Below, in pieces: positions 4,405 to 20,717 of a stretch of 64,000 nt of DNA. The notes under the pieces were generated by a model, which saw only the letters and a program-made list of their open reading frames with translations, searched no databases and had not been told where the DNA came from. This DNA is from Dryocola sp. LX212. Lineage in GTDB: Bacteria; Pseudomonadota; Gammaproteobacteria; Enterobacterales; Enterobacteriaceae. Made by a program: the position numbers and the translations under genes. Each line of letters begins with the position of its first letter. Position 1 is the first letter of the stretch. The stretch is taken from NCBI GenBank assembly GCA_041504365.1, contig CP167917.1, positions 496,001 through 560,000 on the forward strand, written 5' to 3'.

Positions 4405-4489
4405 GCCGAAGTGGCGAAATCGGTAGACGCAGTTGATTCAAAATCAACCGCCGCAAGGCGTGCCGGTTCGATTCCGGCCTTCGGCACCA
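4405..4489 (+). tRNA. leuX: tRNA-Leu (anticodon CAA)
   Basis: 85-nt class II tRNA. The acceptor stem GCCGAAG pairs with CTTCGGC, the anticodon loop TTGATTCAAAATCAA carries CAA, there is a long variable arm, T-loop GGTTCGATTCC, and an encoded 3' CCA. It matches E. coli leuX in layout and flanks (ahr upstream, integrase downstream). The 3' end is duplicated at 30240-30256, marking this tRNA as the integration target of the island. Confidence 0.97.
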
Positions 4490-4675: not shown

Positions 4676-5929
4676 ATGGCTCTAACAGATATCAAAGTCA
4701 GAACAGCGAAGCCAACGGATAAGCAATATAAGCTGACCGATGGCAACGGTATGCATCTTCTCGTCCACCCCAATGGTTCAAGATACTGGCGTCTGCAGTA
4801 CCGCTTTGGCGGGAAGCAAAAGATGCTGGCTTTAGGCGTATATCCTGATGTGTCTCTTGCAGATGCCAGATCGCGTCGTGATGATGCTCGGAAGCTTTTG
4901 GCAAACGGCATCGACCCGGGAGACAAAAAGAAAAGTGATAAGGTTGAACAAGAAGAAGCGCGCACTTTTGAGGAGCTTGCTGTTGAGTGGCATGCCACAA
5001 ATAAAAAGTGGTCGGAAGAACATAGCCGACGAGTGCTCAAAAGCCTGGAGGACAACCTCTTTCCTGCCATTGGTAAACGCAACATTGCCGAGCTAAAAAC
5101 GCGGGATTTGTTAGCTCCTATAAAAGCCGTAGAACTTTCTGGACGACTTGAAGTGGCTTCCCGTCTGCAACAGCGAACCACGGCAATAATGCGTTATGCC
5201 GTACAGAGCGGTTTGCTCGACTACAATCCCGCGCAGGAGATGGTCGGTGCCGTTGCTTCAGGTAACCGGCAACATCGACCAGCTCTTGAATTGAAACGGA
5301 CACCCGAACTGCTTCAGCGCATAGGCAGCTATACCGGTAGGCCGCTGACTCGCCTTGCCGTTGAGCTAACCCTCCTTGTCTTCATTCGTTCCAGTGAATT
5401 GCGTTTTGCTCGTTGGTCCGAGATCGATTTTGAAACATCAATGTGGACGATTCCAGCCGAGCGGGAAGTTATCGAAGGAGTAAAGCACTCACAGCGAGGT
5501 TCGAAAATGCGGACACCTCATCTGGTTCCACTTTCCCGTCAAGCTCTGGCGATTCTCGAGCAGATAAAGACGTTCAGTGGGGATCATGAACTGATCTTTA
5601 TTGGCGATCATAACCCTCGCAAACCGATGAGTGAAAACACGGTGAACAAATCTTTGCGAGTGATGGGATATGACACACAGGTTGAAGTCTGCGGTCACGG
5701 TTTCAGGACAATGGCGTGTAGTTCGTTGATTGAGTCAGGGTTGTGGTCGAGAGATGCAGTGGAACGGCAGATGAGCCATATGGAGCGTAACTCTGTGCGA
5801 GCGGCTTACATTCACAAAGCCGAGCATCTTGATGAGCGCAAACTGATGCTGCAATGGTGGGCTGATTTTCTGGATGCGAATAGGGATAAGGCGGTGAGTC
5901 CGTTTGACTTTGCCAAGTTTGGGCGGTGA
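4676..5929 (+). CDS. P4-family tyrosine recombinase (island integrase)
   Basis: Integrase of 417 residues that inserts and excises the element at leuX. The N-terminal arm-binding domain (MALTDIKVRTAKPTDK, DUF4102 type) is followed by a SAM-like core-binding region and the catalytic domain with R238 (RSSEL), H341-x-x-R344, H368 and nucleophile Y378. All catalytic residues are present, so it looks active. GGGAGGGG lies 6-9 bases before the ATG. It reads away from leuX, as in most tRNA-borne islands; E. coli leuX carries intB in the same position. Confidence 0.95.
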   Translation: MALTDIKVRTAKPTDKQYKLTDGNGMHLLVHPNGSRYWRLQYRFGGKQKMLALGVYPDVSLADARSRRDDARKLLANGIDPGDKKKSDKVEQEEARTFEELAVEWHATNKKWSEEHSRRVLKSLEDNLFPAIGKRNIAELKTRDLLAPIKAVELSGRLEVASRLQQRTTAIMRYAVQSGLLDYNPAQEMVGAVASGNRQHRPALELKRTPELLQRIGSYTGRPLTRLAVELTLLVFIRSSELRFARWSEIDFETSMWTIPAEREVIEGVKHSQRGSKMRTPHLVPLSRQALAILEQIKTFSGDHELIFIGDHNPRKPMSENTVNKSLRVMGYDTQVEVCGHGFRTMACSSLIESGLWSRDAVERQMSHMERNSVRAAYIHKAEHLDERKLMLQWWADFLDANRDKAVSPFDFAKFGR

Positions 5930-6262: not shown

Positions 6263-9200
6263 ATGGATGCATTAAGTGCTACTACATCGACAAATTTCAG
6301 TTTTCTCGCTGAACATGACCCGCTGTTTCTACAAATCGCCACTGCTGCAGAAAATGCCTTCTCAGGCGATCCCAACACCACCTTGATTAAGTTGCGCCAA
6401 CTAGGTGAAGCCTTAGCACAACATATTGCTGCGCTGGTCGGGCTCACGTTTGATGAACCGCCCACTCAGGCTGATTTACTCTACCGCCTCAATCGCGAGC
6501 TAAAATTTGAACCAACGGTACGCGAGCTATTTCATCTATTGCGGATAGAGGGCAACAAGGCCACTCACCAGTTCAAAACCAAGCACAAAGAGGCGCTGGA
6601 TGGCTTAAAAGTGGCGCGAGCGCTAGCTATCTGGTTCCACCAATCTTTCGGCAAGCAGGGAGCGGCCTTTAAACCCGGCGCTTTTATTGCTCCCCCAGAC
6701 CCGAGCAATCAGCTCAGGCAACTCCAAACGGAAATCGATCGCCTCAAAAGTGAGCTCACTACCGCCAACATACAGCTAGATTCCAGCCAACAGCTGCAAA
6801 ATTTGCTGGTGCAGGAAAAGAGTGAATATGAAACGCTGGCGCTAGCCATGGATGATGAAACTAAGGTGTTAGCATCGCAGGCGAAAGAGCAGGAAATTGC
6901 ACTCGAACAGCTTCGACAGCAATACGAAGAAAAATTAAAAATCCTGCAAGCGCAGCTGACCGAAAAAGATGAAAAGCAGGCCCGAACACAACGGCAAGAG
7001 TTTGCCCAGAAGAGCCGCCGTGCTAGCCAACATATCGCGTTAAATGAAGAACTCACCCGTATACTGATTGACCAAAACTTAAATGATGCGGGCTGGCTTG
7101 CTGACAGTCAGGAACTGACCTGGGCTAACGGAACTCGCCCTGAAAAGGGGATAAACAAAGCCATTGCCGAATGGCCTACGGAGCATCAGGGTAAAAAAGG
7201 TCGCGCTGATTACGTTCTGTTTTGCGGCTTAACTCCGCTGGCCACGGTCGAAGCCAAAAAAGAAAACACCGATGTTGCGGGAAAAATTCCGCAGGCAGAA
7301 CGCTATAGCAAAGGCTTCAAAATCACTTCCCCCATGATCGGCGCATGGGAGCGTGAAGGCCGAACCATTGCATGGGCGGATGAAACTGACGGGCATTACA
7401 TTATCCCGTTTGTATACTCCTGCAACGGTCGCCCCTACGTGCCACAGTTGGCCGAGTCATCAGGAACTTGGTTCAGGGACGTGCGCGAACCGTCCAACAT
7501 CCGCCGTGCGCTGCAAAAGTTTCATACCCCGCAAGGCTTGCTGGATAAACTCGAACGCAGCAAAGACAGCGCCGAACAGAAGCTAAAGCAAGAAGGCTTC
7601 GCTTACCTCCGGTTACGCGATTATCAGCAAAAGGCCATTCTCGCCGTTGAAAGCACATTGGCGCAAAACATCCGCAATGCCCTGCTGGCGATGGCAACCG
7701 GCACCGGGAAAACACGCACCATTGTTGGCCTGATGTACCGTTTTCTGAAAACTGAACGCTTCAAGCGCATCCTGTTTCTGGTTGACCGCACGGCTTTGGG
7801 CGACCAAGCCACGGACACCTTCAAAGAAGCGCCGCTGGAGCAAAACCAGACGCTGTCTCAGATTTACAATATCGCTGAGCTCGGCGATATGGCTACACAG
7901 GCAGAAACCCGAGTACAGGTCGCGACGGTACAGGCCATGGTTAGCCGCATTTTTTCCTCGGACACACCACCGCCGGTGGATGAATTTGACTGCATCATCG
8001 TTGATGAAGCCCACCGAGGCTACACCTTAGATCAGGAAATGACGGAAGGGGAGCTCTCGACCCGCGACGCCAGCCAATACCTCTCCAGCTACCGTCGAGT
8101 GCTCGATTATTTCGACGCGGTAAAAATCGGCCTTACCGCCACACCGGCGAAACACACCAGCGATATCTTCGGCAAACCGATTTACATCTACTCCTACCGT
8201 GAAGCCGTGGCGGATGATTGGCTCATCGATCATGAACCCCCGATCCGTTATGAAACGCTGCTGACGCAAAATGGCATCCACTTTGACAAAGGGAGCCAGG
8301 TGCATGCCATTAATATCCACACCGGAGAGGTTGAGATTGACCAGCTAGAAGACGAGGTGGATTTCAACGTCGATGCATTTAACCGTGGCGTCATCAGTGA
8401 AAACTTTAACCGGGTTATTTGCCAACAGCTCGTGAAAGAGCTCGACCCCTTTGGCGAAGAGAAAACACTGGTTTTCTGCGTCACGGACAAACATGCCGAC
8501 ATGGTCAAACGCCTGCTGGATGAAGCGTTCTCTGCCGAATATGAAAACTATAATCAAGCGGCCGTCGAGAAAATCACCGGTGAAAGTGACAAAGTCAAAC
8601 AGCTGATCAAACAGTATAAAAATGAGCGCTACCCGAATATTGCCGTCACCGTTGATTTGCTCAGCACCGGCATTGACGTGCCGAAGATTTGTAATCTGGT
8701 TTTCATGCGTAGGGTGAAGTCACGTATTTTATTTGAACAAATGATCGGTCGCGCAACGCGCCGCTGTGATGATATTGGCAAAACGGTCTTCCGTATTTAC
8801 GATCCGGTGGATATTTATGAGGCCCTCAGCGACGTCAACACCATGAAACCGCTGGTCAAAGACCCCAATATCACGCTTGAACAATTGGTCAGCGAGCTAA
8901 CAGATACTAAACAGCTTGAAAAAGCGCTTAATAGTCCCGGCGAACAGGCCGGGGAAACTCAAGCTGATGTGGTACTCAGCCAGTTAAGCCAAAAGGTGAT
9001 GCGTATTTTGCGTAAAGCGGAAAAACGCGCAGAAAGTCGTCCGGCGGTGAAACAAAAGTTGGCTGACCTTCACCAGATTTGGGGTGTAGAACCTAAACAA
9101 CTGCATCAACACCTGCATCATTTAGGGCCGCGTCAGGCGGCTGCCTTCATCCAACAACAGCAAGGGTTAATCAGTCAGCTCAACGAGATAGCTACATTAC

Positions 9201-9787
9201 TCGGCAGTGAATACCGGCCGATTATTTCTGAGCATCATGACCAACTAGAGGAACGTAACCAGAGCTACGGTAGCCATCAACGGCCAGAAGATTACTTGGA
9301 AAGCTTTGCGGATTTTATTCAGCAGCAGCTTAACCAATCCACTGCGCTGGCCGTGGTTGTCAACAAACCCCGCGACCTCACTCGTGAACAGCTTAAAGAG
9401 ATCCGCTTATTATTAGACGGTGCGGGCTATTCCGAAGCTAAACTACAAACCGCCGTGCGTAATCAAACCAATCAGGATATCGCCGCCAGTATTGTCGGCC
9501 ATATTCGCCGTGCTGCACTAGGGGAACCGCTTATGCCTTTTGCGCAGCGCGTATCACAGGCAATGATCAACATTTATAACAGCCACGCATGGACAACCCA
9601 GCAACGAAAATGGCTGGATCGTCTGGCAAAACAGCTGGTTCATGAAGTGATCATTGACCACCAATTTATTAACAGTCGTTTTGCTGATGACGGCGGCGTA
9701 AAACAGCTTAATAAGATATTGGTAGACCAACTGGACAGCGTGCTGGATGAACTTAACGGTGCGATCTGGCCACAACAAAGCGCCTGA
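6263..9787 (+). CDS. hsdR: Type I restriction enzyme, R (endonuclease/translocase) subunit
   Basis: ATP-driven DNA translocase and endonuclease of a type I restriction-modification complex, 1174 residues. An N-terminal DUF4145-like domain (about 1-130) is followed by a long Gln/Glu-rich coiled coil (about 145-250), the HSDR_N nuclease core with D316 and E330-A-K332, and a superfamily 2 helicase with GTGKT (480-484), DEAH (581-584), GLTATP and a QMIGRATRR motif VI. The C-terminal part should dock to HsdM/HsdS. All key residues are present. First gene of the hsdRMS-ATPase-HNH run, but a hairpin with a T run separates it from hsdM. Confidence 0.95.
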   Translation: MDALSATTSTNFSFLAEHDPLFLQIATAAENAFSGDPNTTLIKLRQLGEALAQHIAALVGLTFDEPPTQADLLYRLNRELKFEPTVRELFHLLRIEGNKATHQFKTKHKEALDGLKVARALAIWFHQSFGKQGAAFKPGAFIAPPDPSNQLRQLQTEIDRLKSELTTANIQLDSSQQLQNLLVQEKSEYETLALAMDDETKVLASQAKEQEIALEQLRQQYEEKLKILQAQLTEKDEKQARTQRQEFAQKSRRASQHIALNEELTRILIDQNLNDAGWLADSQELTWANGTRPEKGINKAIAEWPTEHQGKKGRADYVLFCGLTPLATVEAKKENTDVAGKIPQAERYSKGFKITSPMIGAWEREGRTIAWADETDGHYIIPFVYSCNGRPYVPQLAESSGTWFRDVREPSNIRRALQKFHTPQGLLDKLERSKDSAEQKLKQEGFAYLRLRDYQQKAILAVESTLAQNIRNALLAMATGTGKTRTIVGLMYRFLKTERFKRILFLVDRTALGDQATDTFKEAPLEQNQTLSQIYNIAELGDMATQAETRVQVATVQAMVSRIFSSDTPPPVDEFDCIIVDEAHRGYTLDQEMTEGELSTRDASQYLSSYRRVLDYFDAVKIGLTATPAKHTSDIFGKPIYIYSYREAVADDWLIDHEPPIRYETLLTQNGIHFDKGSQVHAINIHTGEVEIDQLEDEVDFNVDAFNRGVISENFNRVICQQLVKELDPFGEEKTLVFCVTDKHADMVKRLLDEAFSAEYENYNQAAVEKITGESDKVKQLIKQYKNERYPNIAVTVDLLSTGIDVPKICNLVFMRRVKSRILFEQMIGRATRRCDDIGKTVFRIYDPVDIYEALSDVNTMKPLVKDPNITLEQLVSELTDTKQLEKALNSPGEQAGETQADVVLSQLSQKVMRILRKAEKRAESRPAVKQKLADLHQIWGVEPKQLHQHLHHLGPRQAAAFIQQQQGLISQLNEIATLLGSEYRPIISEHHDQLEERNQSYGSHQRPEDYLESFADFIQQQLNQSTALAVVVNKPRDLTREQLKEIRLLLDGAGYSEAKLQTAVRNQTNQDIAASIVGHIRRAALGEPLMPFAQRVSQAMINIYNSHAWTTQQRKWLDRLAKQLVHEVIIDHQFINSRFADDGGVKQLNKILVDQLDSVLDELNGAIWPQQSA

Positions 9788-9804
9788 TTCTGGTAAAATT
9801 CGCT

Positions 9805-9822
9805 GGCGAAACTCGCCTTTTT
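9805..9822 (+). terminator. Short intrinsic terminator or attenuator between hsdR and hsdM
   Basis: GGCGA/TCGCC stem with a three-base loop followed directly by five T, inside the 79-bp hsdR-hsdM gap. The stem is short, so partial read-through is likely. It could lower hsdR-to-hsdM read-through, so that hsdM depends on its own promoter. Confidence 0.55.
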
Positions 9823-9866
9823 AATCGCGCTTGCGGCATATTTTGTGAGCGAATGCAGGAAAAATA

Positions 9867-11486
9867 ATGAGTAATAATAACGATATCGTACAAAAACTGT
9901 GGAACCTGTGTGATGTACTGCGTGACGACGGCATCAACTACAGCGATTACGTCACCGAACTAGTGCTACTGCTGTTTATCAAAATGGTGCATGAAAATAC
10001 CGAAGCAGAATTATTAGATCAGCACACCTTACCGCAGGGCTGCCGCTGGGGCGATCTCAACAGTTTATCGGGCCTCAACCTGCTCAACTATTACAAACAA
10101 ATGCTGTTGAAGCTCTCCAGTGGCAAAGACGCTGAAGGTAATTCGGTTCATGCTGACCCGCTGATTAGCGCCATTTATGCCGATGCGCAAACTCGCCTGC
10201 GTGAGCCTCGTCATCTCGAACAGATGATCCGCACCCTCGACCAAATTGACTGGTTTAGTGCTAAAAAAGACGGTCTCGGCGATCTTTATGAAGGTCTGCT
10301 GGAGAAAAACGCCGGAGAAACAAAATCTGGCGCAGGACAATATTTTACGCCGCGAGCTTTAATTAACAGCATGGTACGCTGCATTAAGCCACAGCCTGGA
10401 GAAGTGATCCAAGATCCCGCTGCGGGCACCGCAGGATTTTTGATTGCCGCCGATCAATACATCAAGCAACAAACCGACAACCTCTACGACCTGACGGCCA
10501 AAGCGAGAACCTTTCAAAAAAATAAAGCCTTTGTTGGTGTGGAACTGGTTCCGTCTACGCGCCGCTTGGCACTGATGAACTGCCTGCTGCACGGCATGGA
10601 AGGGGATGACGAAGGCGTCGTGCATCAGGGCAACGCGCTGGGCATGGCGGGCGCTAGCTTGCCCAAAGCCGATATCATTCTTGCTAACCCTCCGTTCGGT
10701 ACGGCGAAGGGCGGTGAAGCTAGCATTACCCGTGATGACTTAACCTACCCAACCAGTAACAAACAGCTAGCGTTTTTACAGCATATCTACCGTAACTTAA
10801 AACCGGGTGGCCGTGCAGCCGTGGTGCTGCCCGACAACGTCTTGTTTGAAGCGGGCGTTGGCACCGATGTACGTCGCGACCTTATGAACAAATGCAACCT
10901 GCACACCATTTTACGTTTACCCACCGGGATTTTTTACGCCCAAGGGGTGAAAACCAACGTTTTGTTCTTCACCAAAGGTAGCGCCAACAACAAATATCAG
11001 GATGAAAACTGTACCGAAAACGTCTGGGTCTATGATCTGCGCAGTAACATGCCAAGCTTTGGCAAACGCACCCCGTTTGGTGAGCAACATTTAAAACCCT
11101 TTGAAGCGGTTTACGGTGACGATGCCTACGGCCAAAGCCCGCGCAGCGAAGGGGAATGGAGCTTTAACTCCGACGAGCTCGACGCGCCCGATAACGCCGA
11201 AAATCAGCACGTTGACGACCGCATGGCGACCAGCCGCTGGCGCACATTCAGCCGCGAATGGATCCGCGATGTTAAAGGTGATTCATTAGATATCTCATGG
11301 CTGAAAGATAACAACAGCGTTGATGCGGCTAACCTACCTGAACCATCGGTGCTGGCTGCCGAAGCGATGGGCGAACTGGTGCAGGCACTGGGGGAGCTGG
11401 ATACGCTGATGCGTGAGCTGGGCGCTAGCGATGAAGCCGATGCGCAAAAGACGTTGCTGAATGAGATGTTGGGTGGGGTTAAGTGA
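9867..11486 (+). CDS. hsdM: Type I DNA methyltransferase, M subunit
   Basis: N6-adenine methyltransferase subunit of 539 residues that protects host sites and forms the M2S core. An N-terminal helical HsdM_N domain is followed by the SAM-binding motif DPAAGTAGF (from residue 183) and catalytic NPPF (274-277). The signature YFTPRALIN precedes them, and all are intact. The stop codon TGA overlaps the ATG of hsdS (TGATG), so the two are translationally coupled. Confidence 0.96.
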   Translation: MSNNNDIVQKLWNLCDVLRDDGINYSDYVTELVLLLFIKMVHENTEAELLDQHTLPQGCRWGDLNSLSGLNLLNYYKQMLLKLSSGKDAEGNSVHADPLISAIYADAQTRLREPRHLEQMIRTLDQIDWFSAKKDGLGDLYEGLLEKNAGETKSGAGQYFTPRALINSMVRCIKPQPGEVIQDPAAGTAGFLIAADQYIKQQTDNLYDLTAKARTFQKNKAFVGVELVPSTRRLALMNCLLHGMEGDDEGVVHQGNALGMAGASLPKADIILANPPFGTAKGGEASITRDDLTYPTSNKQLAFLQHIYRNLKPGGRAAVVLPDNVLFEAGVGTDVRRDLMNKCNLHTILRLPTGIFYAQGVKTNVLFFTKGSANNKYQDENCTENVWVYDLRSNMPSFGKRTPFGEQHLKPFEAVYGDDAYGQSPRSEGEWSFNSDELDAPDNAENQHVDDRMATSRWRTFSREWIRDVKGDSLDISWLKDNNSVDAANLPEPSVLAAEAMGELVQALGELDTLMRELGASDEADAQKTLLNEMLGGVK

Positions 11487-12844
11487 TGAGCGAGGGTAAA
11501 TTGCCTGAAGGGTGGTGCTACGCATGTGTTGGCGACTATCTTTATTTGAAAAATGGTTTTGCTTTCAAAAGTACTAGTTATGTAAATGCGAGTGAGCATA
11601 CATATCCAGTAATCAGAATATCAGATTTAAATGGGGCTCAGACTTCAGACCGAAATGCTGTTCATGTATTAGCTGGAGAGAGTGGTTTTGAAATTAACAG
11701 TGGTGATTTATTAATTGCTATGTCTGGCGCAACGACGGGAAAAATAGGAGTATACTCAGGGCGAACACCTGCGTATCAAAATCAACGCGTTGGAAATATC
11801 ATTCTTCATTCCACTAAATATGGTAATGCTAAATATCGAGACCTCCTAATATCTTCGCTATCTGACACTATATTGGAAATTGCTTATGGAGGAGCTCAGC
11901 CTAATATATCTGGTAAAGGTATTGAGCAAATAACTATATTGCTCCCCCCCCTAACCGAACAAAAAATCATCGCCGATAAACTCGACACTCTGCTAGCACA
12001 GGCTGATAGCGCCAAAGCACGCCTTGAGCAAATACCACAAATCCTAAAACGTTTTCGTCAGGCGGTGCTGGCGGCCGCGGTGAGTGGGAAATTGATCTCT
12101 ACAAATAGTGAAGTAAATAAATTAACTAGACTTGGTAAAATTGCCAAAGATATTAGATATGGAACATCTAAAAAATGTTCTGAGGATAAAGGTAATGTGG
12201 CTGTGTTACGGATCCCCAACATTGGGATGGGTTATATAATTAATCATAATCTTAAATATGCTGATTTTGATTCAAAAGAGCTACTCTCGCTTTCTTTGGA
12301 GAAAGGTGATTTGCTTTTAATTCGTTCAAATGGAAGCGTAGATTTAGTTGGCAAAGTAGCTGTAATTTCAGAAAATGATATTAAATATCTTTTTGCAGGA
12401 TATCTTATCCGCATAAGACTTGATCAAGAAAAAGCTATACCTCACTATATTTCCTTTTGTTTGCAGAGCCCGCAATTAAGGCAAGTCATTGAAAATATTG
12501 CTCGCTCCACTTCTGGTGTTAACAATATCAACAGTAAGGAACTTGCTTCACTTGAATTACCTCTCCCTCTACTTTCAGAACAAACCGAAATTGTTCACCG
12601 CGTAGAACAACTTTTCGCCTACGCTGACGGCATCGAAAAGCAGGTACAAAACGCCCTTGAGCGCGTCAACAACCTCACGCAATCGATTCTAGCTAAAGCA
12701 TTTCGCGGAGAACTCACGGCGCAGTGGCGGGCTGAAAACCCTGACTTAGTTCGTGGTGAAAATAGCGCCCAAGCCTTATTGGAAAAAATTCAACAGCAAC
12801 GCGCAAGCACAAAAAATATCAAATGCGGCAAAGGTAATAGTTAA
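11486..12844 (+). CDS. hsdS: Type I specificity subunit S
   Basis: Recognises the split target sequence, 452 residues. There are two target-recognition domains (about 1-150 and 205-365), each followed by a conserved helical spacer containing L(T/S)EQ and a coiled-coil run (about 155-200 and 370-430). Both recognition domains are much richer in A+T than the spacers and than hsdM/hsdR, which suggests exchange of recognition domains by recombination. A run of seven C at 11944-11950 sits in frame at the end of the first domain. ATG 11486 is preferred over GTG 11483 because of the stop-start overlap. It ends with a one-base overlap onto the ATPase gene. Confidence 0.94.
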   Translation: MSEGKLPEGWCYACVGDYLYLKNGFAFKSTSYVNASEHTYPVIRISDLNGAQTSDRNAVHVLAGESGFEINSGDLLIAMSGATTGKIGVYSGRTPAYQNQRVGNIILHSTKYGNAKYRDLLISSLSDTILEIAYGGAQPNISGKGIEQITILLPPLTEQKIIADKLDTLLAQADSAKARLEQIPQILKRFRQAVLAAAVSGKLISTNSEVNKLTRLGKIAKDIRYGTSKKCSEDKGNVAVLRIPNIGMGYIINHNLKYADFDSKELLSLSLEKGDLLLIRSNGSVDLVGKVAVISENDIKYLFAGYLIRIRLDQEKAIPHYISFCLQSPQLRQVIENIARSTSGVNNINSKELASLELPLPLLSEQTEIVHRVEQLFAYADGIEKQVQNALERVNNLTQSILAKAFRGELTAQWRAENPDLVRGENSAQALLEKIQQQRASTKNIKCGKGNS

Positions 12845-14547
12845 TGCGATTACTCTCCTTAAGTTTACGCGGCAGCTACAAAGGCTTAAAAGATCAAGTC
12901 TTTGATTTTAGTTATGCTCAAGACAATGTATTTGCCTTGATTGGCCTCAATGGGTCAGGTAAATCTCAATTGCTTGAGTTAATAGGAGAAACTTTTTCTT
13001 ATCTGGAACGATGGCAACGTGAAGAATTCAAAACTAAAACGTCGCTAGGTTTTGCCGTTACAGTACATTATCAATGGGATCTTAGACATGATAATGATGC
13101 TCTTTTATATCCTGACATGCCCATTACCCGTGATGGTATTGTTGAGTTAAAGGTAACGATTGAGCTTAATGGTGATGTGGTTTTAAGTATTCGCAATGCT
13201 GATGAGTGGCATACATTAGAGGCTGGTGAACATCAATTTCCTATTCCGGTAGTAGTTGGTTATGCATCGGGGCTAAACGAAAATTTACAGCGCAGCTTTA
13301 TGAAGAATGCTGTTCAACATTTTGAAGTACGTCGTGTTAGCGCCCAAAGACATAAAAGACTTTCGCAGAAAATTGACCAGGAACAACAAGTCGATATTAA
13401 TCATCAGTATATAAAAAAATATCCACATATTTTTAGTCAATTATCTGAAGAGGGTTTCGTACAAGATGGCTATTTAGAGTTAAGAGAAGTTAACTCATTT
13501 GCTAGTAATTTTAACTACCTTGATTACGATAATGTTGGGCTATTGGTTCTATCGCTTTCGGTACTTCCGACAGAAACAGTATTACAACTGTTTGATGAAA
13601 TAACATACAAACATCCTGTCAAAGCAGTGCTTCATTACGACTTTCGCTCAGGTATCATAGAAGATGATGCCATTCGTGATGTGAAAATGTTGATCCGTAT
13701 AGCAGGCTCCGATCATGTTAGGCCAACGGGAGGCCGAACGACAGATAACCAGTATGAGCTTTATGAGTTAGAGTATCTTTCTGGAGAAATCACTCTTGAA
13801 TTAAGTGATGAGGCTGTTTTAAACCGACTTCGTGAAGATAACTACTATGATTCTTTCGCATTATTTAAAAGACTTAATAATATTCAACAGCTTGGCATAA
13901 AGAACTGGGATCGTACATCTCGTTTGAAATTGATGAAAGATGATTTTATAGGTACGGTAAAAAAACCTCTGCAGTCAAGATTACCTTTATCTGTTGTTGA
14001 GTTATTAATGGCTAATGAACAAGGTGACACCGTCAAATTTGATGATTTATCTGACGGTGAAGCTCAATTGATTCAGGTTATCGCGGCTACGCGAATATTT
14101 AGTCAGGCTCAGGCTATATTTCTTTTTGATGAGCCCGAGACACATCTTAATCCATCTTGGCGTACCTATTTTCACCAGCGTTTAACCGAAGCATTTACAC
14201 CTGAAAAAGAGAGAAAAGGTCAATCGCAGTTCTTTTTATCTACTCACTCACCATTCATGATTTCCTCGCTCAAACGCGAGAATGTATTTTTCTTCGAGCG
14301 TAGTGATATGGGTTGTATCAGTATGGAACCGGTGTCCAGCCAGACTTATGGTACCTCATTTGATATCTTGGTTAAGAACCACTACGGTTTGCGTTCCCTT
14401 ATTTCACAGACAGTGGTAGAGGATGTTAAAAATCGATTACCAGAAGATAATAATCCTGAAGCAGTTATAGCTGCGCGACGCTGGATTGAGGACAATTTGG
14501 GAGAGTCAATGGAAAAGGCTTATCTTCTAAGGAAATTAGAGAACTAA
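12844..14547 (+). CDS. Restriction-associated AAA/SMC-like ATPase (Septu PtuA-like)
   Basis: ABC/SMC-type ATPase of 567 residues. Walker A GLNGSGKS is at 34-41, the signature-like LSDGE at 402-406, Walker B FLFDEPETHLNP with D429/E430, and an H-loop STHSPF around 466-471. The long middle stretch between Walker A and the signature has no recognised domain. Such ATPases paired with an HNH nuclease form the Septu (PtuA/PtuB) anti-phage systems, and related genes are known as restriction-system-associated ATPases. The start overlaps the hsdS stop (TAATG) and the end overlaps the next gene the same way. AT-rich compared with hsdR/hsdM. Assignment to Septu is an inference from the gene pair. Confidence 0.7.
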   Translation: MRLLSLSLRGSYKGLKDQVFDFSYAQDNVFALIGLNGSGKSQLLELIGETFSYLERWQREEFKTKTSLGFAVTVHYQWDLRHDNDALLYPDMPITRDGIVELKVTIELNGDVVLSIRNADEWHTLEAGEHQFPIPVVVGYASGLNENLQRSFMKNAVQHFEVRRVSAQRHKRLSQKIDQEQQVDINHQYIKKYPHIFSQLSEEGFVQDGYLELREVNSFASNFNYLDYDNVGLLVLSLSVLPTETVLQLFDEITYKHPVKAVLHYDFRSGIIEDDAIRDVKMLIRIAGSDHVRPTGGRTTDNQYELYELEYLSGEITLELSDEAVLNRLREDNYYDSFALFKRLNNIQQLGIKNWDRTSRLKLMKDDFIGTVKKPLQSRLPLSVVELLMANEQGDTVKFDDLSDGEAQLIQVIAATRIFSQAQAIFLFDEPETHLNPSWRTYFHQRLTEAFTPEKERKGQSQFFLSTHSPFMISSLKRENVFFFERSDMGCISMEPVSSQTYGTSFDILVKNHYGLRSLISQTVVEDVKNRLPEDNNPEAVIAARRWIEDNLGESMEKAYLLRKLEN

Positions 14548-15707
14548 TGTTATTCTCACTCAACCCACAGACTCCTCAATGCTCTGTATTTTCATTACTT
14601 AACGCTGAGTTTCTTCATTTTCTGCAATCTAGTGTTAATGCAGATGTTTATTCAGAGAGATTATTTCGTACCTTTACGGAAACAAGTCGAGGTAGACAAA
14701 GAACAGTCCCAAGTGTTTGTTGGAGTAATAAACCAACAAGAGAAAAATTTCATAAACTCTGGTTAGAGCTCCCAGATACAATAGTCAAACGTCAGGAATT
14801 ATCAGATCAGATAAGTGAGTCCCAGAATATCCAAAATTTTTTTAATGACACTCAAGCTAGATTGCCAGAATTAGTGCCGACCTCCTTATTTGAAGCGTGT
14901 AAGTCATTAACAACTCATCTCTTTACATGCACAAAAGATCTTGCTAAAGCAAAGCTACAATCTCAAAGTTCTATAGAAAATCATTATCAAAACTTTGTAA
15001 GGGAAAATAATCACAGCCATCTTTGTTCTATTTGTGGTACTGCACTTCTCTCTCAAAATAGAGCGAATGTAGCAGATGAAAAACAGTATCGTTCAGACTA
15101 CGATCATGTTCTTTGCAAAGATAAATATCCCGTTTACAGTGTTCATCCTGGTAATTTCATTCCGACTTGCCACATTTGCAACAGTAAAGCAAAAGGAGCT
15201 AAAGATGTTCTCAGAGATAATGTGAACCAACGAAGAATAGCATTTTATCCACTTCCCCCATCTCAAGAGTCATGTGAACAATTTGCAGCGGTGTCACTTC
15301 ATCTAAGTGATCGTAGAGACTTAATTGAGAATAACTGGGAAGCGCCCTTGGACTCAGCATCTGTTTTATTCCCAAGAGCTCCAGTAGACATAGTAAGTAA
15401 AATAGATGTCTGGAAAGAAGTTTACAAAGTTACAGAAAGAGTAGAACAGCATCTTAAAACTCACTTTATCGAGCGTATAGCTACAGATTTGCGACCAGTA
15501 AGTTTTGATGATTTCTGTGGGCAATTAGATAGATATTCAAGACAAATGCCAATAGACTATAAAAAATCGGAGTGGAGGTTTTGGTGGCATAAAGTTTATG
15601 AGTTTTTATCTAGTCAAAATGAAGCCTATCTACAAGATGTTTGGGTATTAATTGACTGGAAGTTAAGGCTATCAAATGATGCTGATATGGCTGACACTTT
15701 TGATTAA
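14547..15707 (+). CDS. HNH endonuclease partner (Septu PtuB-like)
   Basis: Predicted DNA nuclease of 386 residues. A zinc-ribbon HNH core lies in the middle: C160-x2-C163, D184-Y-D186-H187, N203 and C208-x2-C211 followed by NSKAKG, the usual layout of HNH domains stabilised by two CxxC pairs. The first 140 residues and the last 150 show no recognised domain, so it is larger than many PtuB proteins. It begins with a one-base overlap on the ATPase gene, which argues for a complex made in fixed ratio. Its stop codon lies 9 bp from the end of the convergent Argonaute-partner gene. Confidence 0.7.
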   Translation: MLFSLNPQTPQCSVFSLLNAEFLHFLQSSVNADVYSERLFRTFTETSRGRQRTVPSVCWSNKPTREKFHKLWLELPDTIVKRQELSDQISESQNIQNFFNDTQARLPELVPTSLFEACKSLTTHLFTCTKDLAKAKLQSQSSIENHYQNFVRENNHSHLCSICGTALLSQNRANVADEKQYRSDYDHVLCKDKYPVYSVHPGNFIPTCHICNSKAKGAKDVLRDNVNQRRIAFYPLPPSQESCEQFAAVSLHLSDRRDLIENNWEAPLDSASVLFPRAPVDIVSKIDVWKEVYKVTERVEQHLKTHFIERIATDLRPVSFDDFCGQLDRYSRQMPIDYKKSEWRFWWHKVYEFLSSQNEAYLQDVWVLIDWKLRLSNDADMADTFD

Positions 15708-15716
15708 TGTTGAATA

Positions 15717-16913
15717 TCATTTCAACCGGTGATGAATATTGTCATACTGTTTTTTTAAATTCATTGTGGAGGGGGCGTTTATTACGACGCAACCATCAAT
15801 GCCATTTATCTTCAACACCCCCTCCTTGAATTTCGTATGTTCTTGCGTTGCACGCGTGCAATCCCACAGGAAACTGATGATACTTGAATCCTTATATTTT
15901 TCGTCGACACGATAAAGTGATGCATCTTCTGCAATTTCTCCTATTAGTGCAGGAAACGATTTCTTTGTATCTTTTCGGTATTTTACTTCAATAATTGTGT
16001 GCAGTGATGGCAGATAAAGGTCAATGCGGGGGTTTTTTTGCCCGACAGGCTGAAGATTCACCTCATCTGCAATATCGTTGAATATTGGTGCAAGTAGGAT
16101 ATAAAGCAGATTCTGAACATGATATTCATTTTCAACTTGCCACTTTACGGGCTCTGCGCCTCTGGTTCGACCTGAGTCCTCCCATGTCCACCTTTTTAAC
16201 CCAGCAGGGATATGTTCCAGAAATCCTAGCAGGTCATCCAGTGTCCATCCAGACGGTGGAGCAATGGCAATTTCCTGATTAATTTGATTAAAAACGTAAA
16301 GCATTACGCATAAGAGAGTCACTGAAGGATTTTCTGTAGCTTGTGCTTGAAATTCACTCATAAAACGTCCGACAAGAGAAAGTCGGTTCTGATGGCTATT
16401 GATCTTCAGTAACTTTCTATAATGAAGGAAGAGTGGTATGCAAGCACTACTAAAGGTGGCTGATTCGCTGTTACTGACATATGTCGCGATATCTTTCTCG
16501 AAGATACTGAGATGGTTGCTTTCAATCTGCTGAGCCAGAAACCCTGAAATCCACTGTTCGAACTCGTGATCTATACTCTCATCTTGAATCTTTGCGGTTA
16601 GCCATTTTACTGCCATTACACCGAACATGTCCGATACCCAAGGTCTCGGTGTTGAGTCGATCTTGGGAGCTTGCCCGAGCAGGCGAGAAACATCCTGGAC
16701 CGAGACAGTTTCATCCAGAATACCTAAACCTGAAATTGCACAGCGTTGGTATAAAGATAGGTCCGCAAAGCTAAAATTCGTAATGCAGCTTTTAACTCCT
16801 TCCAGAAGATTAAAAAAGCAGGACTTAAATGGATCAATGTGAGCGGATTCGATCACCTTACTGTGAAAATAGTCGCGTAGCTGATAAACGTTTTCTTTCT
16901 CTATAGGAACCAT
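15717..16913 (-). CDS. PD-(D/E)XK nuclease partner of long-B Argonaute (AgaN-like)
   Basis: Predicted effector nuclease of 398 residues. The C-terminal third carries the restriction-endonuclease-like core: E263 in a helix, D298 in NPRIDLYLP, and E309-V-K311 in IIEVKYRK, followed by a helix GEIAEDASLY. The N-terminal 250 residues are helical without a recognised domain. Genes of this type sit next to long-B Argonautes (BPAN systems), where the Argonaute senses invading DNA and the nuclease degrades DNA so that the infected cell dies. Its start lies inside the Argonaute gene (13-bp overlap), so the two are translationally coupled. Confidence 0.8.
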   Translation of the reverse strand: MVPIEKENVYQLRDYFHSKVIESAHIDPFKSCFFNLLEGVKSCITNFSFADLSLYQRCAISGLGILDETVSVQDVSRLLGQAPKIDSTPRPWVSDMFGVMAVKWLTAKIQDESIDHEFEQWISGFLAQQIESNHLSIFEKDIATYVSNSESATFSSACIPLFLHYRKLLKINSHQNRLSLVGRFMSEFQAQATENPSVTLLCVMLYVFNQINQEIAIAPPSGWTLDDLLGFLEHIPAGLKRWTWEDSGRTRGAEPVKWQVENEYHVQNLLYILLAPIFNDIADEVNLQPVGQKNPRIDLYLPSLHTIIEVKYRKDTKKSFPALIGEIAEDASLYRVDEKYKDSSIISFLWDCTRATQEHTKFKEGVLKINGIDGCVVINAPSTMNLKKQYDNIHHRLK

Positions 16914-19132
16914 TGTGAATGCCCTATTTTTCCAATCATGACTGAGTCACTCCAGCCCGGTAGCTGATTCAACCATCCTAAATTATGGGCGATAAGATCG
17001 GAATAAGTGATGGTAACTGGCATGGGATTGGGGAAGTAACTACGCCAGGAGTGTGATGCGAAACTGTAGAGCTGAGCACTCAAATACTTAATATCTTTGA
17101 AGGTCGAGTCTTTATGAACGTTGACGATCACACCACGTGGATGACCGTCCGTTTCTTGTCGTAATTCACGTTGGCCAATCAGGTAAACAAGCATTTCGTT
17201 TTTAGAAAGCTTAAACGTTTTTCCGCGATGTGTCGCCAGGCGTCCTTTCGGCATGGTCGCCGTTGAAGAGTCGAACATGTGGAGTCCGTGATTCTCTGAG
17301 ATTTTTACGAAGGCATACTCGATCTGGTAATCTCTATACTTGTCGATTACCGCACGGACTGCCTGAATCTCTTCCTTATTGAACTTTTTGACTTGTACAT
17401 GGAAAATTAAGCGAATCGTATCGCCTTTCTGCCAGTTCATTCGCCTTTGTATTTTTTCTATATTCTCGGCTAGAACAGAGGTTAGAGCGCCGCAGTAAGC
17501 TTCCGGTACAACGGCTTTGGACGTACTCGAGACAATGTAACTACCGTCTCCCGAAAATACGGTGGTGATTCCCATAATGCGCTGATTATGGGCACCACGC
17601 TCTTGGACGATATTTGCACTGCCAATACCGATCACAAGTTCATGGGATAGCGTTGGCGATGATTTTAGCAGCCACGGGATTCCACCCATCTTCGCATAGC
17701 AGGCCAGTGACATGTTATTAAGCGAGTAGCCGAGTGAATAATCAGACTGCGCTAGCAGCTCTATTGTGAAATCCTGTACAGGAACTTGGTGCAAGTAAAA
17801 TAGGCTTTTACCAAGATAGTAAGGATTATCAGCAACTTTAAGTTTTTTAAATGACTGCCGCACCTGTACGAGGGCCAGATCCCAACGTCCTCCGTCATCG
17901 GCTTTTTTGCGTATTGCAGCTTCGATGGCACTTTTGTATGCATCGACGCTGTCTGTGGATGTTTCGAACACTTCAACACGACTGGTTCCAAGTGCAAATT
18001 TACCCTCAAGGCCATTTCTAAAATATTTGCTATTAGACATACCTTTCAGTAGCTTACGGATGAACTGCTCGACTCGTCCTTTGTCATGTTGGGCGCAGAT
18101 CACGCAGATTGACGGATCGTTCCTATCGAAGGTACGTTTTGTATAGGGGCCATTTTGTGTAAGACCCTTCTCCGCCCAATCTGCTTCACCGTTATCGTTG
18201 AAGACGAACACCGGCTTTTGCATTTGTACACAATCTTTTTGAATGTCGGATGGATCCTCGATTTCGATACGCGTTCCATCGAGCAGTGAGATGTTTGTCG
18301 CTTGGATATACCTCTTAAGGGCGTCGATTCGGTCTTTTTTATTCTCGCCTCCGTTGAAAATGGAAACGGACTGCCGAATATGTTCGACAATGGAGTCTTT
18401 CTTCGTACCATGCGTATGAAGGATGTAGTCGTCAAAATTCGCTCGGCTAGCTTCGAGATAAACGTCTTTCGCCTCAGCATGAACAGCTTGGCCGTCGGGA
18501 CGAATGACACTCAAAGTTCTCCCTTCGTAGCAGCTTTCTACAAACCCTAAAAGTTTTCTAAATCCGTCGTCCTGCTCGGTGACGACGTAGCGACCAATAA
18601 CATTGAATCCGGTTTTTAGGAAAAACAGGCAGTTCTCTTTTACTACACGACGTGTTGTGCAATCAATTATAAGACACGGTTGGCCCTGAACAGTACGGGT
18701 GTTGATTGAATATTTGGCACAAACTTTTAAGGGATAAGCCTCACCAAGAATTGAGGCTAAAAGATTGTCTTTTGGTTTGGCACTTACCACCTCGATAGGA
18801 TTGAAGCCGCAAGGAGTTCGGCCCAATCCAGCGAAGTGCTTGAGCAGACCATCTTTAACCAGAGAGCAAAAGGTTCCCAAATTATCCTTTAGTTGCAGTG
18901 TCTGCGGTGTACCAGATTTGGGGAACGTACCATCACTCGAAAAGATCTGAATATTTTCACCATGACGCCGGAAGACGTGCGTCACTTTATGGGAGGAGCG
19001 GAGGCTATCTAGAGTTGTCTTGTCGTAGGGTATCTGGACAAATTTCAACTCCAATTCAGGGACTTTCAGTGGAAACGCATTCAGGACAATCGGCAAGACC
19101 CACCCCTTTTGTGTTAGTGAAAAATCCAACAT
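16901..19132 (-). CDS. Prokaryotic Argonaute, long-B type, catalytically inactive
   Basis: Guide-dependent nucleic acid-binding protein of 743 residues, about the length of RsAgo-type long-B Argonautes. The MID part ends with the hallmark AKMGGIPWLL (480-489, with the guide-binding Lys at 481). PIWI follows (about 498-743) and ends in WFL at the extreme C-terminus, as in the family. The DEDX tetrad is gone: the first Asp position reads IGIGSA (501-506), the second reads FHVQVKK (577-583), and the last reads ITYSDL (708-713). It should therefore bind but not cut. In family members the guide is RNA and the target DNA. It is the first gene of a two-gene operon with the nuclease. Confidence 0.9.
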   Translation of the reverse strand: MLDFSLTQKGWVLPIVLNAFPLKVPELELKFVQIPYDKTTLDSLRSSHKVTHVFRRHGENIQIFSSDGTFPKSGTPQTLQLKDNLGTFCSLVKDGLLKHFAGLGRTPCGFNPIEVVSAKPKDNLLASILGEAYPLKVCAKYSINTRTVQGQPCLIIDCTTRRVVKENCLFFLKTGFNVIGRYVVTEQDDGFRKLLGFVESCYEGRTLSVIRPDGQAVHAEAKDVYLEASRANFDDYILHTHGTKKDSIVEHIRQSVSIFNGGENKKDRIDALKRYIQATNISLLDGTRIEIEDPSDIQKDCVQMQKPVFVFNDNGEADWAEKGLTQNGPYTKRTFDRNDPSICVICAQHDKGRVEQFIRKLLKGMSNSKYFRNGLEGKFALGTSRVEVFETSTDSVDAYKSAIEAAIRKKADDGGRWDLALVQVRQSFKKLKVADNPYYLGKSLFYLHQVPVQDFTIELLAQSDYSLGYSLNNMSLACYAKMGGIPWLLKSSPTLSHELVIGIGSANIVQERGAHNQRIMGITTVFSGDGSYIVSSTSKAVVPEAYCGALTSVLAENIEKIQRRMNWQKGDTIRLIFHVQVKKFNKEEIQAVRAVIDKYRDYQIEYAFVKISENHGLHMFDSSTATMPKGRLATHRGKTFKLSKNEMLVYLIGQRELRQETDGHPRGVIVNVHKDSTFKDIKYLSAQLYSFASHSWRSYFPNPMPVTITYSDLIAHNLGWLNQLPGWSDSVMIGKIGHSQWFL

Positions 19133-19669: not shown

Positions 19670-20326
19670 TCAGCCCTGACTACAACCAAATGAGCGTTCA
19701 ATACTGCTATAGCGTTTGGTTCGATGCTTTGCCATGTAACTCAGACGGAAAGTAAGTGCATCCAGTTTATCCATGAATTCCGGCTTATTGAGCTCCAGGA
19801 AAGCCATAGGATTATCAACAAAGTGCACTAGCGTCAGATATTCAGGCCAGTCACGCTTCTTCATTGCACTTAGCCACGCGTTCTGAACAAGAGAGGCCAG
19901 ACCTTTCCCCTGTTCGCCGTAGCCTCCCAGAGCATTGAACGTGTCGGTATTGACGAAAAGTGCCATGTGGTAATGCTTCTTGCCACCCAGCTCTGGTTGC
20001 TCCAGCACCCAGACGTAGCGAACTGAAGAGCGATGGCAGCGTTTACCTTCCCTGGCTTTTCTTTGTCGGTAAGCGGCTATCTGAGCTTTCAGTGAGTCGA
20101 TAAAGCGGGACATTAGCCCCGGGCTTAAGTCTGCATCACTGACAATACTGTCACCCACATCTCCGGCTTCCGGTAAGTGTAAATCCACCCTGATAACCGT
20201 GGTTTGTGGATGGTCCTGCAGTGCGTTACAGAGTACCCCTTCGATACGCTGTAGATATTTCTCGTTGAAAGGTTCATGGCGTTGGTCCACTACCATTGGG
20301 TGGATGATGTCATCGAACAAAAACAT
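19670..20326 (-). CDS. YfjJ/YagK-type inovirus Gp2-like protein
   Basis: 218-residue protein of the family found in P4/CP4-type elements and related to inovirus replication protein Gp2. Recognisable features are a histidine pair in GGKKHYHMALFVN, similar to rolling-circle initiator motif II, a preceding RYVWVLEQPE, and SYMAKHRTKRY near the end, where a Tyr follows as in RCR enzymes. The start at 20326 is chosen for GGAGGAAA 6-8 bases upstream; a longer frame runs to 20383. It may start element replication, but this is inferred from the fold only. Downstream of alpA on the same strand. Confidence 0.75.
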   Translation of the reverse strand: MFLFDDIIHPMVVDQRHEPFNEKYLQRIEGVLCNALQDHPQTTVIRVDLHLPEAGDVGDSIVSDADLSPGLMSRFIDSLKAQIAAYRQRKAREGKRCHRSSVRYVWVLEQPELGGKKHYHMALFVNTDTFNALGGYGEQGKGLASLVQNAWLSAMKKRDWPEYLTLVHFVDNPMAFLELNKPEFMDKLDALTFRLSYMAKHRTKRYSSIERSFGCSQG

Positions 20327-20717
20327 AATAGTTTCCTCCACCTGTAGGGAAACAGCAGGTATAGTGCTGCCTTCCTGAAACACAGACAGGCATAGTGATT
20401 GGGAGATTCAGGGAGTAACGCTGATAGGGATATTGATTACAGGCGTTGCTAGTTGTTCAGCATATGGCTCAGATGATTACAGCCTTATGCCCTGCAGAGG
20501 TTTATTTAAGTGTTTGTATTATATGGTCATTGACAGGTTTTTAGGCTCTTACCCCACAGGTAAATACTACCTATCCGACATTAGTTCCGCTTAGCGGAAC
20601 CTTTTGTGGCAAGGCTTAACTTATTGTTTCAATGACAATAATTACTCCGAAGTTAGCAGTTCCATAAAATATGTATTTGCCCTGGAATGGTTATGTATCC
20701 GTCGCATTTCGAGCGGC
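20327..20717. other. Gene-free gap with hairpin
   Basis: About 390 bp with no supported gene. A perfect GTTCCGC/GCGGAAC hairpin with a TTA loop at 20584-20600 is followed by CCTTTT and could act as a terminator on the forward strand. Confidence 0.45.

Follow-up and report, generated by a model that had tools for sequence, protein, structure and literature searches.

The window analysed here, 64,000 nucleotides of Dryocola sp. LX212 (contig CP167917.1, positions 496,001 to 560,000 of the forward strand), carries on its minus strand an Argonaute gene and, overlapping its end, a second gene, together at 15717-19132. Which kind of prokaryotic Argonaute (pAgo) system do the two genes encode, and how does it relate to those already characterised? 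A preliminary description of this DNA had read the pair as a long-B prokaryotic Argonaute plus nuclease (BPAN). This reading holds: the pair is almost certainly a BPAN, orthologous to the Escherichia coli system EcBPAN and working by the mechanism proposed below. The identification is based on the sequences, the gene order, the MID motif, the dead PIWI domain, the intact D-EVK residues of the nuclease, and the ~97% and 95% identity to the E. coli proteins EcAgo and EcbAgaN, respectively; the assignment by PADLOC agrees with it. The system is real but already described, being a close copy of the published BPAN.

The Argonaute protein

Counted from its first ATG, the minus-strand open reading frame (ORF) at 16901-19132 comprises 743 codons, as the preliminary description had it. 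The gene most likely covers only 16901-19096 (minus strand), from a TTG codon at 19096-19094, and encodes a 731-residue EcAgo homologue with a guide-binding MID domain and an inactive PIWI domain. Pfam profile search reports a Piwi domain (E 2e-11), and PADLOC reports pAgo_II (E 3e-291, residues 16-743 of the 743-residue reading), a full-length match to a profile of 724 positions. For both proteins of the pair, the Pfam and PADLOC E-values exclude chance. The protein has a single match in its own genome, and its best matches in the PDB are EcAgo, followed by RsAgo. Judged by the pAgo_II assignment and these two matches, it is a full-length long-B pAgo, a group with a shortened PAZ* domain according to the part of the literature considered here (PMC6299218). 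Among solved structures, the nearest are the EcAgo and EcbAgaN chains of PDB entry 23wq, with eight chains of each in the entry. A hand count on the printed alignment gives 18 differences from EcAgo, plus the start residue, over 731 residues (~97% identity). RsAgo is likewise a long-B Argonaute that aligns over residues 165-743 and has a glycine at the first catalytic position, but its similarity is far lower (phmmer 242 bits versus 1657 for EcAgo). The entries 6d8a, 5awh, and 6d95, titled uncharacterized protein, are those that we take to be RsAgo.

The canonical YK motif of the MID domain, which binds the 5'-phosphate of the guide, is described in accounts of long-B pAgos and of ApsB (PMC6299218, PMC11096173). 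Alignment A1 brings together 23 of 28 full-length Argonautes (left out: L002, L005, L007, L009, and L012; L027 and L028 are partial; L numbers designate loci), the relatives being 56-96% identical to the window protein. Residues Y426, K430, Q441, and K469 (731 numbering) are invariant in all 23. In the PIWI domain, three MAFFT settings agree that the position of TtAgo D478, the first catalytic aspartate, is occupied by glycine and that of D546, the third catalytic residue, by phenylalanine in 23/23 sequences. The second and fourth positions, E512 and D660, remain acidic (17 Glu and 6 Asp; 22 Asp and 1 Glu). The TtAgo residue numbers were checked by residue identity in the TtAgo protein only. 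Read from these positions, the PIWI domain is devoid of the DEDX catalytic tetrad and catalytically dead, in agreement with the cleavage-dead Argonaute proposed earlier; the AKMGGIPWLL stretch and the terminal WFL named with it are also present.

The partner nuclease and the gene junction

The second gene (15717-16913, minus strand) encodes bAgaN, a nuclease of 398 residues with a helical N-terminal domain (residues ~9-214) and a C-terminal DpnII/MboI-type PD-(D/E)XK domain (residues 234-381), in line with Pfam, PADLOC, and a structure model. Pfam profile search assigns the protein to the DpnII-MboI family (E 4e-43) and PADLOC to Aga_Helical-REase (E 1e-132). Profile searches thus place the Argonaute inside the PIWI proteins and its partner inside the PD-(D/E)XK superfamily. 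In alignment A2, which holds 28 nucleases including that of the window (without L002 and the truncated L007), the relatives are 50-95% identical to the window nuclease, and D298, E309, V310, and K311, located at the positions given in the preliminary description, are invariant in 28/28. By hand count on the printed alignment, the nuclease differs from EcbAgaN of 23wq at 19 positions over 389 (~95% identity).

The structure model of the nuclease reports helices across residues 9-214, mostly with fair confidence, whereas its C-terminal part is poorly predicted; fold searches returned nothing secure. The N-terminal domain is predicted to be helical, in line with the PADLOC name Helical-REase, and we infer that it may receive the Argonaute signal. 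The earlier view that the N-terminal 250 residues have no recognised fold is not upheld, as a helical domain is predicted there, PADLOC names it, and the region is part of the deposited complex 23wq.

The two genes overlap by 13 bp (16901-16913, minus strand), and both this overlap and the 398-residue length of the second protein are as first described. The nuclease starts behind the Argonaute gene with an identical overlap in 29/29 relatives, one of which has GTG for ATG; L007 is among them, its contig ending after 47 nuclease residues. The overlap fixes the C-terminus of the Argonaute (W-F-L) and the N-terminus of the nuclease (M-V), and every one of the 30 junctions, that of the window included, has TAG as the Argonaute stop codon. 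Pairwise distances among the Argonautes and among the nucleases correlate with r 0.98 over 27 pairs including that of the window (0 of 2000 permutations as high), and still with r 0.93 once the four most distant pairs are removed. Coevolution of the two proteins is also reported in the consulted part of Song et al. (PMC10620215).

Relation to EcBPAN and proposed mechanism

Both genes are found in EcBPAN, also in this order, with identically numbered catalytic residues. It differs from the window pair by 18 Argonaute and 19 nuclease substitutions and by the end of the nuclease (398 versus 390 residues). The chains of 23wq are, by their names EcAgo and EcbAgaN, the EcBPAN proteins of Song et al. 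(PMC10620215). As reported in the sections of that study drawn on here (Song et al. 2023 Nat Commun, PMC10620215), EcAgo carries small RNAs with a 5'-phosphate and binds complementary single-stranded DNA (ssDNA). The ssDNA-bound EcAgo activates EcbAgaN, a dimeric Mn-dependent DNase, upon which genomic DNA is degraded and the cells are killed. The system acts on plasmids with a CloDF13 origin. The mutations D298A and E309A-K311A abolish EcbAgaN activity, and residues with the same numbers are found in the window nuclease.

The Dryocola copy, 95-97% identical to EcBPAN, is inferred by analogy to behave in the same way. The dead long-B Argonaute would take up small RNAs with a 5'-phosphate from the transcriptome, and these guides would lead it to complementary ssDNA, such as that exposed at a CloDF13-type plasmid origin. 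Loaded with guide and target, the Argonaute would switch on the dimeric PD-(D/E)XK nuclease, which would degrade DNA without sequence preference. A plasmid-carrying cell would thereby lose its genome and die, and the plasmid would be removed from the population.

Three observations weigh against this identification and mechanism. The nuclease has nine residues after residue 389, compared with one in EcbAgaN. The results of Song et al. that we could draw on (PMC10620215) include no protection by EcBPAN against T5, T7, or lambda-vir in plating, and a pull-down in which no stable complex of EcAgo and EcbAgaN was seen.

In BPAS and BPAM, too, a long-B Argonaute is accompanied by a killer protein of its own (PMC10620215, in the part consulted), but their effector is a Sir2 or a membrane protein, while here it is a PD-(D/E)XK DNase. 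The short pAgo systems SPARTA, SPARSA, and SPARDA are ruled out, as the Argonaute matches the full-length 724-position profile; no APAZ family is found among the Pfam and PADLOC matches of the partner. The pair might instead be a helicase-linked, non-abortive system of the ApsAB/DdmDE kind, which removes plasmids without killing the cell. Plasmids are indeed the target of ApsAB, in which an Argonaute-like protein is joined by a partner containing a PD-(D/E)XK nuclease domain; a MID motif resembling that of long-B pAgos is retained in ApsB (PMC11096173, as far as seen). However, neither Pfam nor PADLOC reports a helicase family in the 398-residue partner, the window Argonaute has a recognisable PIWI domain while ApsB is described as devoid of one (same source), and the identity points to EcBPAN. 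We consider membership in this group extremely improbable.

A further reading, that the genes are intact yet form an inactive relic no longer expressed or functional in its host, would fit the sparse distribution of the pair. It was found by megablast in 1 of 5426 complete E. coli genomes, and it occurs in 2 of the 147 relatives searched, counting Dryocola sp. LX212 itself. Against this stand two full-length reading frames, the retention of all Argonaute and nuclease motifs, and the conserved Argonaute start and gene overlap, so that a relic appears very unlikely and a working BPAN remains the preferred reading.

The Argonaute start codon

The preliminary description had taken the Argonaute to be a 743-residue MID-PIWI protein. 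While the ORF and the Piwi domain are present, the start was very probably placed 12 codons too early: comparison with relatives makes it most likely that the protein has 731 residues and begins at the TTG, 12 codons after the first ATG. The upstream extension of 12 codons (19097-19132, minus strand) is most likely untranslated. Of 27 relatives, 25 have an aligned TTG start, which in one case stands one codon further on; the remaining two have ATG at the aligned start or one codon earlier. In 18 of the 27, the would-be extension is interrupted by an in-frame stop somewhere from position 6 to position 11, which rules out the longer form there. A G-rich, Shine-Dalgarno-like stretch immediately precedes the TTG of the window. 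The commonest codon is kept in at least 25 of 28 sequences at just 11 of 234 invariant degenerate columns, which makes the stability of the TTG unusual, although start codons are under a constraint of their own. On structural grounds, the 731-residue form is also the one preferred in the portion of Song et al. consulted (PMC10620215). The weak TTG start may limit Argonaute output.

Island and cassette context

ARAGORN reports a tRNA-Leu(CAA), a leuX-type insertion site, at 4405-4489 (plus strand). It is followed by a 417-residue ORF (4676-5929, plus strand) that is a putative island integrase by its position and DNA similarity, the region being ~90% identical to an E. coli stretch in which a tyrosine recombinase/integrase is annotated beside a tRNA-Leu. 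The leuX-island label given at the outset therefore fits. A second copy of the tRNA 3' end was found neither in the window within 3 mismatches nor in the 4.7-Mb genome within 1 mismatch, and the far border of the island was not found. Next come the type I restriction-modification (R-M) genes hsdR, hsdM, and hsdS (6263-12844, plus strand; Pfam, PADLOC), which are neighbours of BPAN, and an AAA ATPase (567 residues) with an HNH-like partner (386 residues), at 12844-15707 (plus strand). PADLOC matches of this latter pair are PtuA (E 5e-44), PDC-M62B (E 4e-10), and PtuB (E 8e-7), which make it Septu (PtuAB)-like; it is not part of BPAN. The pair lies directly behind hsdS, is only distantly Septu-like, and is possibly an R-M-attached Septu variant. 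The BPAN operon faces this R-M and Septu-like block. Upstream of the Argonaute gene, a protein with a YagK/YfjJ domain is encoded at 19670-20383 (minus strand); the E. coli island has a gene of this kind as well, further along.

The E. coli island, in strain VTB96935v (NZ_CP178662, L031), presents the same arrangement of tRNA-Leu, integrase, hsdRMS, AAA ATPase, hypothetical protein, and convergent nuclease and Argonaute genes. Its Argonaute is identical to that of the window at 710/731 positions, with 3 differences from the 23wq chain by hand count, and its nuclease at 373 of the 390 positions compared, but hsdS and the AAA/HNH pair have diverged. Phytobacter ursingii (L003) shares the cassette order, including the AAA/HNH pair and BPAN, as far as its locus reaches. 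In 500-bp bins, window and VTB96935v are mostly 93-99% identical over hsdR/hsdM and BPAN, compared with mostly 49-86% over the hsdS-AAA-HNH middle, where two bins reach 93%. Against both L031 and L003, window positions 11000-15700 are mostly more diverged than the hsdRM and BPAN ends. A diverged middle between conserved ends suggests that hsdS, AAA, and HNH have been partly replaced or exchanged within the cassette. For the 4.5-kb chromosomal flank, the best E. coli matches have ~80% identity over 53% of its length, and none of the 5426 genomes covers 80%.

Distribution

The nuclease profile matches 4 of 369 genomes of the class, including that of Dryocola sp. LX212, two of the other three matches being partial or weak; it also matches 2 of 14 control genomes (E. 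coli and Corynebacterium glutamicum), and is not BPAN-specific. The genome collection was scanned by pattern, a search limited to close relatives, and 28 loci were returned; they belong to Gamma-, Beta-, and Alphaproteobacteria and to a few metagenome-assembled genomes (MAGs) labelled Nitrospirae, Desulfobulbus, Manganitrophaceae, and Bacteroidetes. Argonautes that are ~80% identical under distant taxon labels point to horizontal transfer, as far as these labels can be trusted, since MAG labels can be wrong. Among 50,697 phage records, none matched; in IMG/VR, 11 stretches match both peptide patterns of profile A1, and none of them encodes a relative. On plasmids, 12 of 72,556 records match, a single one above 60% identity (Shewanella, 82%). 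Three copies of BPAN (L010, L011, and L013) are located on one 1.2-Mb contig of an alphaproteobacterial MAG (JAHDXS010000001), with mutual identities of 92-97% for the Argonautes and 89-98% for the nucleases. In L010 the pair lies behind an XhoI-type gene, and in L011 and L013 behind type III R-M-like genes.

Restriction-modification genes near BPAN

The neighbour scan (PADLOC and Pfam) covered genes near the relatives, at part of the loci the nearest gene, and we claim no enrichment of R-M genes from it. Near BPAN elsewhere are XhoI-type and type III R-M genes, hsdR, a Gabija helicase, Lamassu, a caspase, ShosA, and PDC-S06. Several neighbours speak against a defence-island picture: those in L015, L018 (174 residues), L021, L022 (343 residues), and L030 (192 residues) have no PADLOC or Pfam match, an 801-residue neighbour in L022 has no PADLOC match, the L006 neighbour is a GGDEF/EAL protein, and the upstream gene in L003 encodes a DUF3987 protein.

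In L008 and L010, 12 bp separate the end of a type II restriction gene from the Argonaute TTG (also in L007, and partly in L009 and L012). This gene is XhoI-type by Pfam in L008 and REase_II by PADLOC in L008 and L010, and in L007 it is assigned by its identical first 30 residues only; L008 and L012 have a type II methylase gene upstream. The restriction gene and BPAN look like one transcription unit. Outside the enterobacterial cassette, the distance from an R-M gene to BPAN behind it is 12 or 26 bp in some genomes. It is conceivable, although we think it unlikely, that BPAN does not stand alone but is a suicidal second layer of R-M units, moving in enterobacteria as one ready-made cassette with the type I R-M and Septu-like block; the conserved weak TTG would keep Argonaute levels low, and the system would fire only when the first layer fails or yields foreign ssDNA. 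As defence islands are common and the nearest gene was surveyed at part of the loci, cooperation of R-M and BPAN is only a hypothesis.

Significance

An Argonaute suicide system that has already been characterised occurs, almost without change, in a tRNA-Leu island of an enterobacterium that is not E. coli. Related pairs are present across many proteobacteria, and also in MAGs assigned by label to a few other groups. The additions made here are modest: the Argonaute start is corrected to a conserved TTG, and the shared cassette structure makes any cooperation of R-M and BPAN testable.

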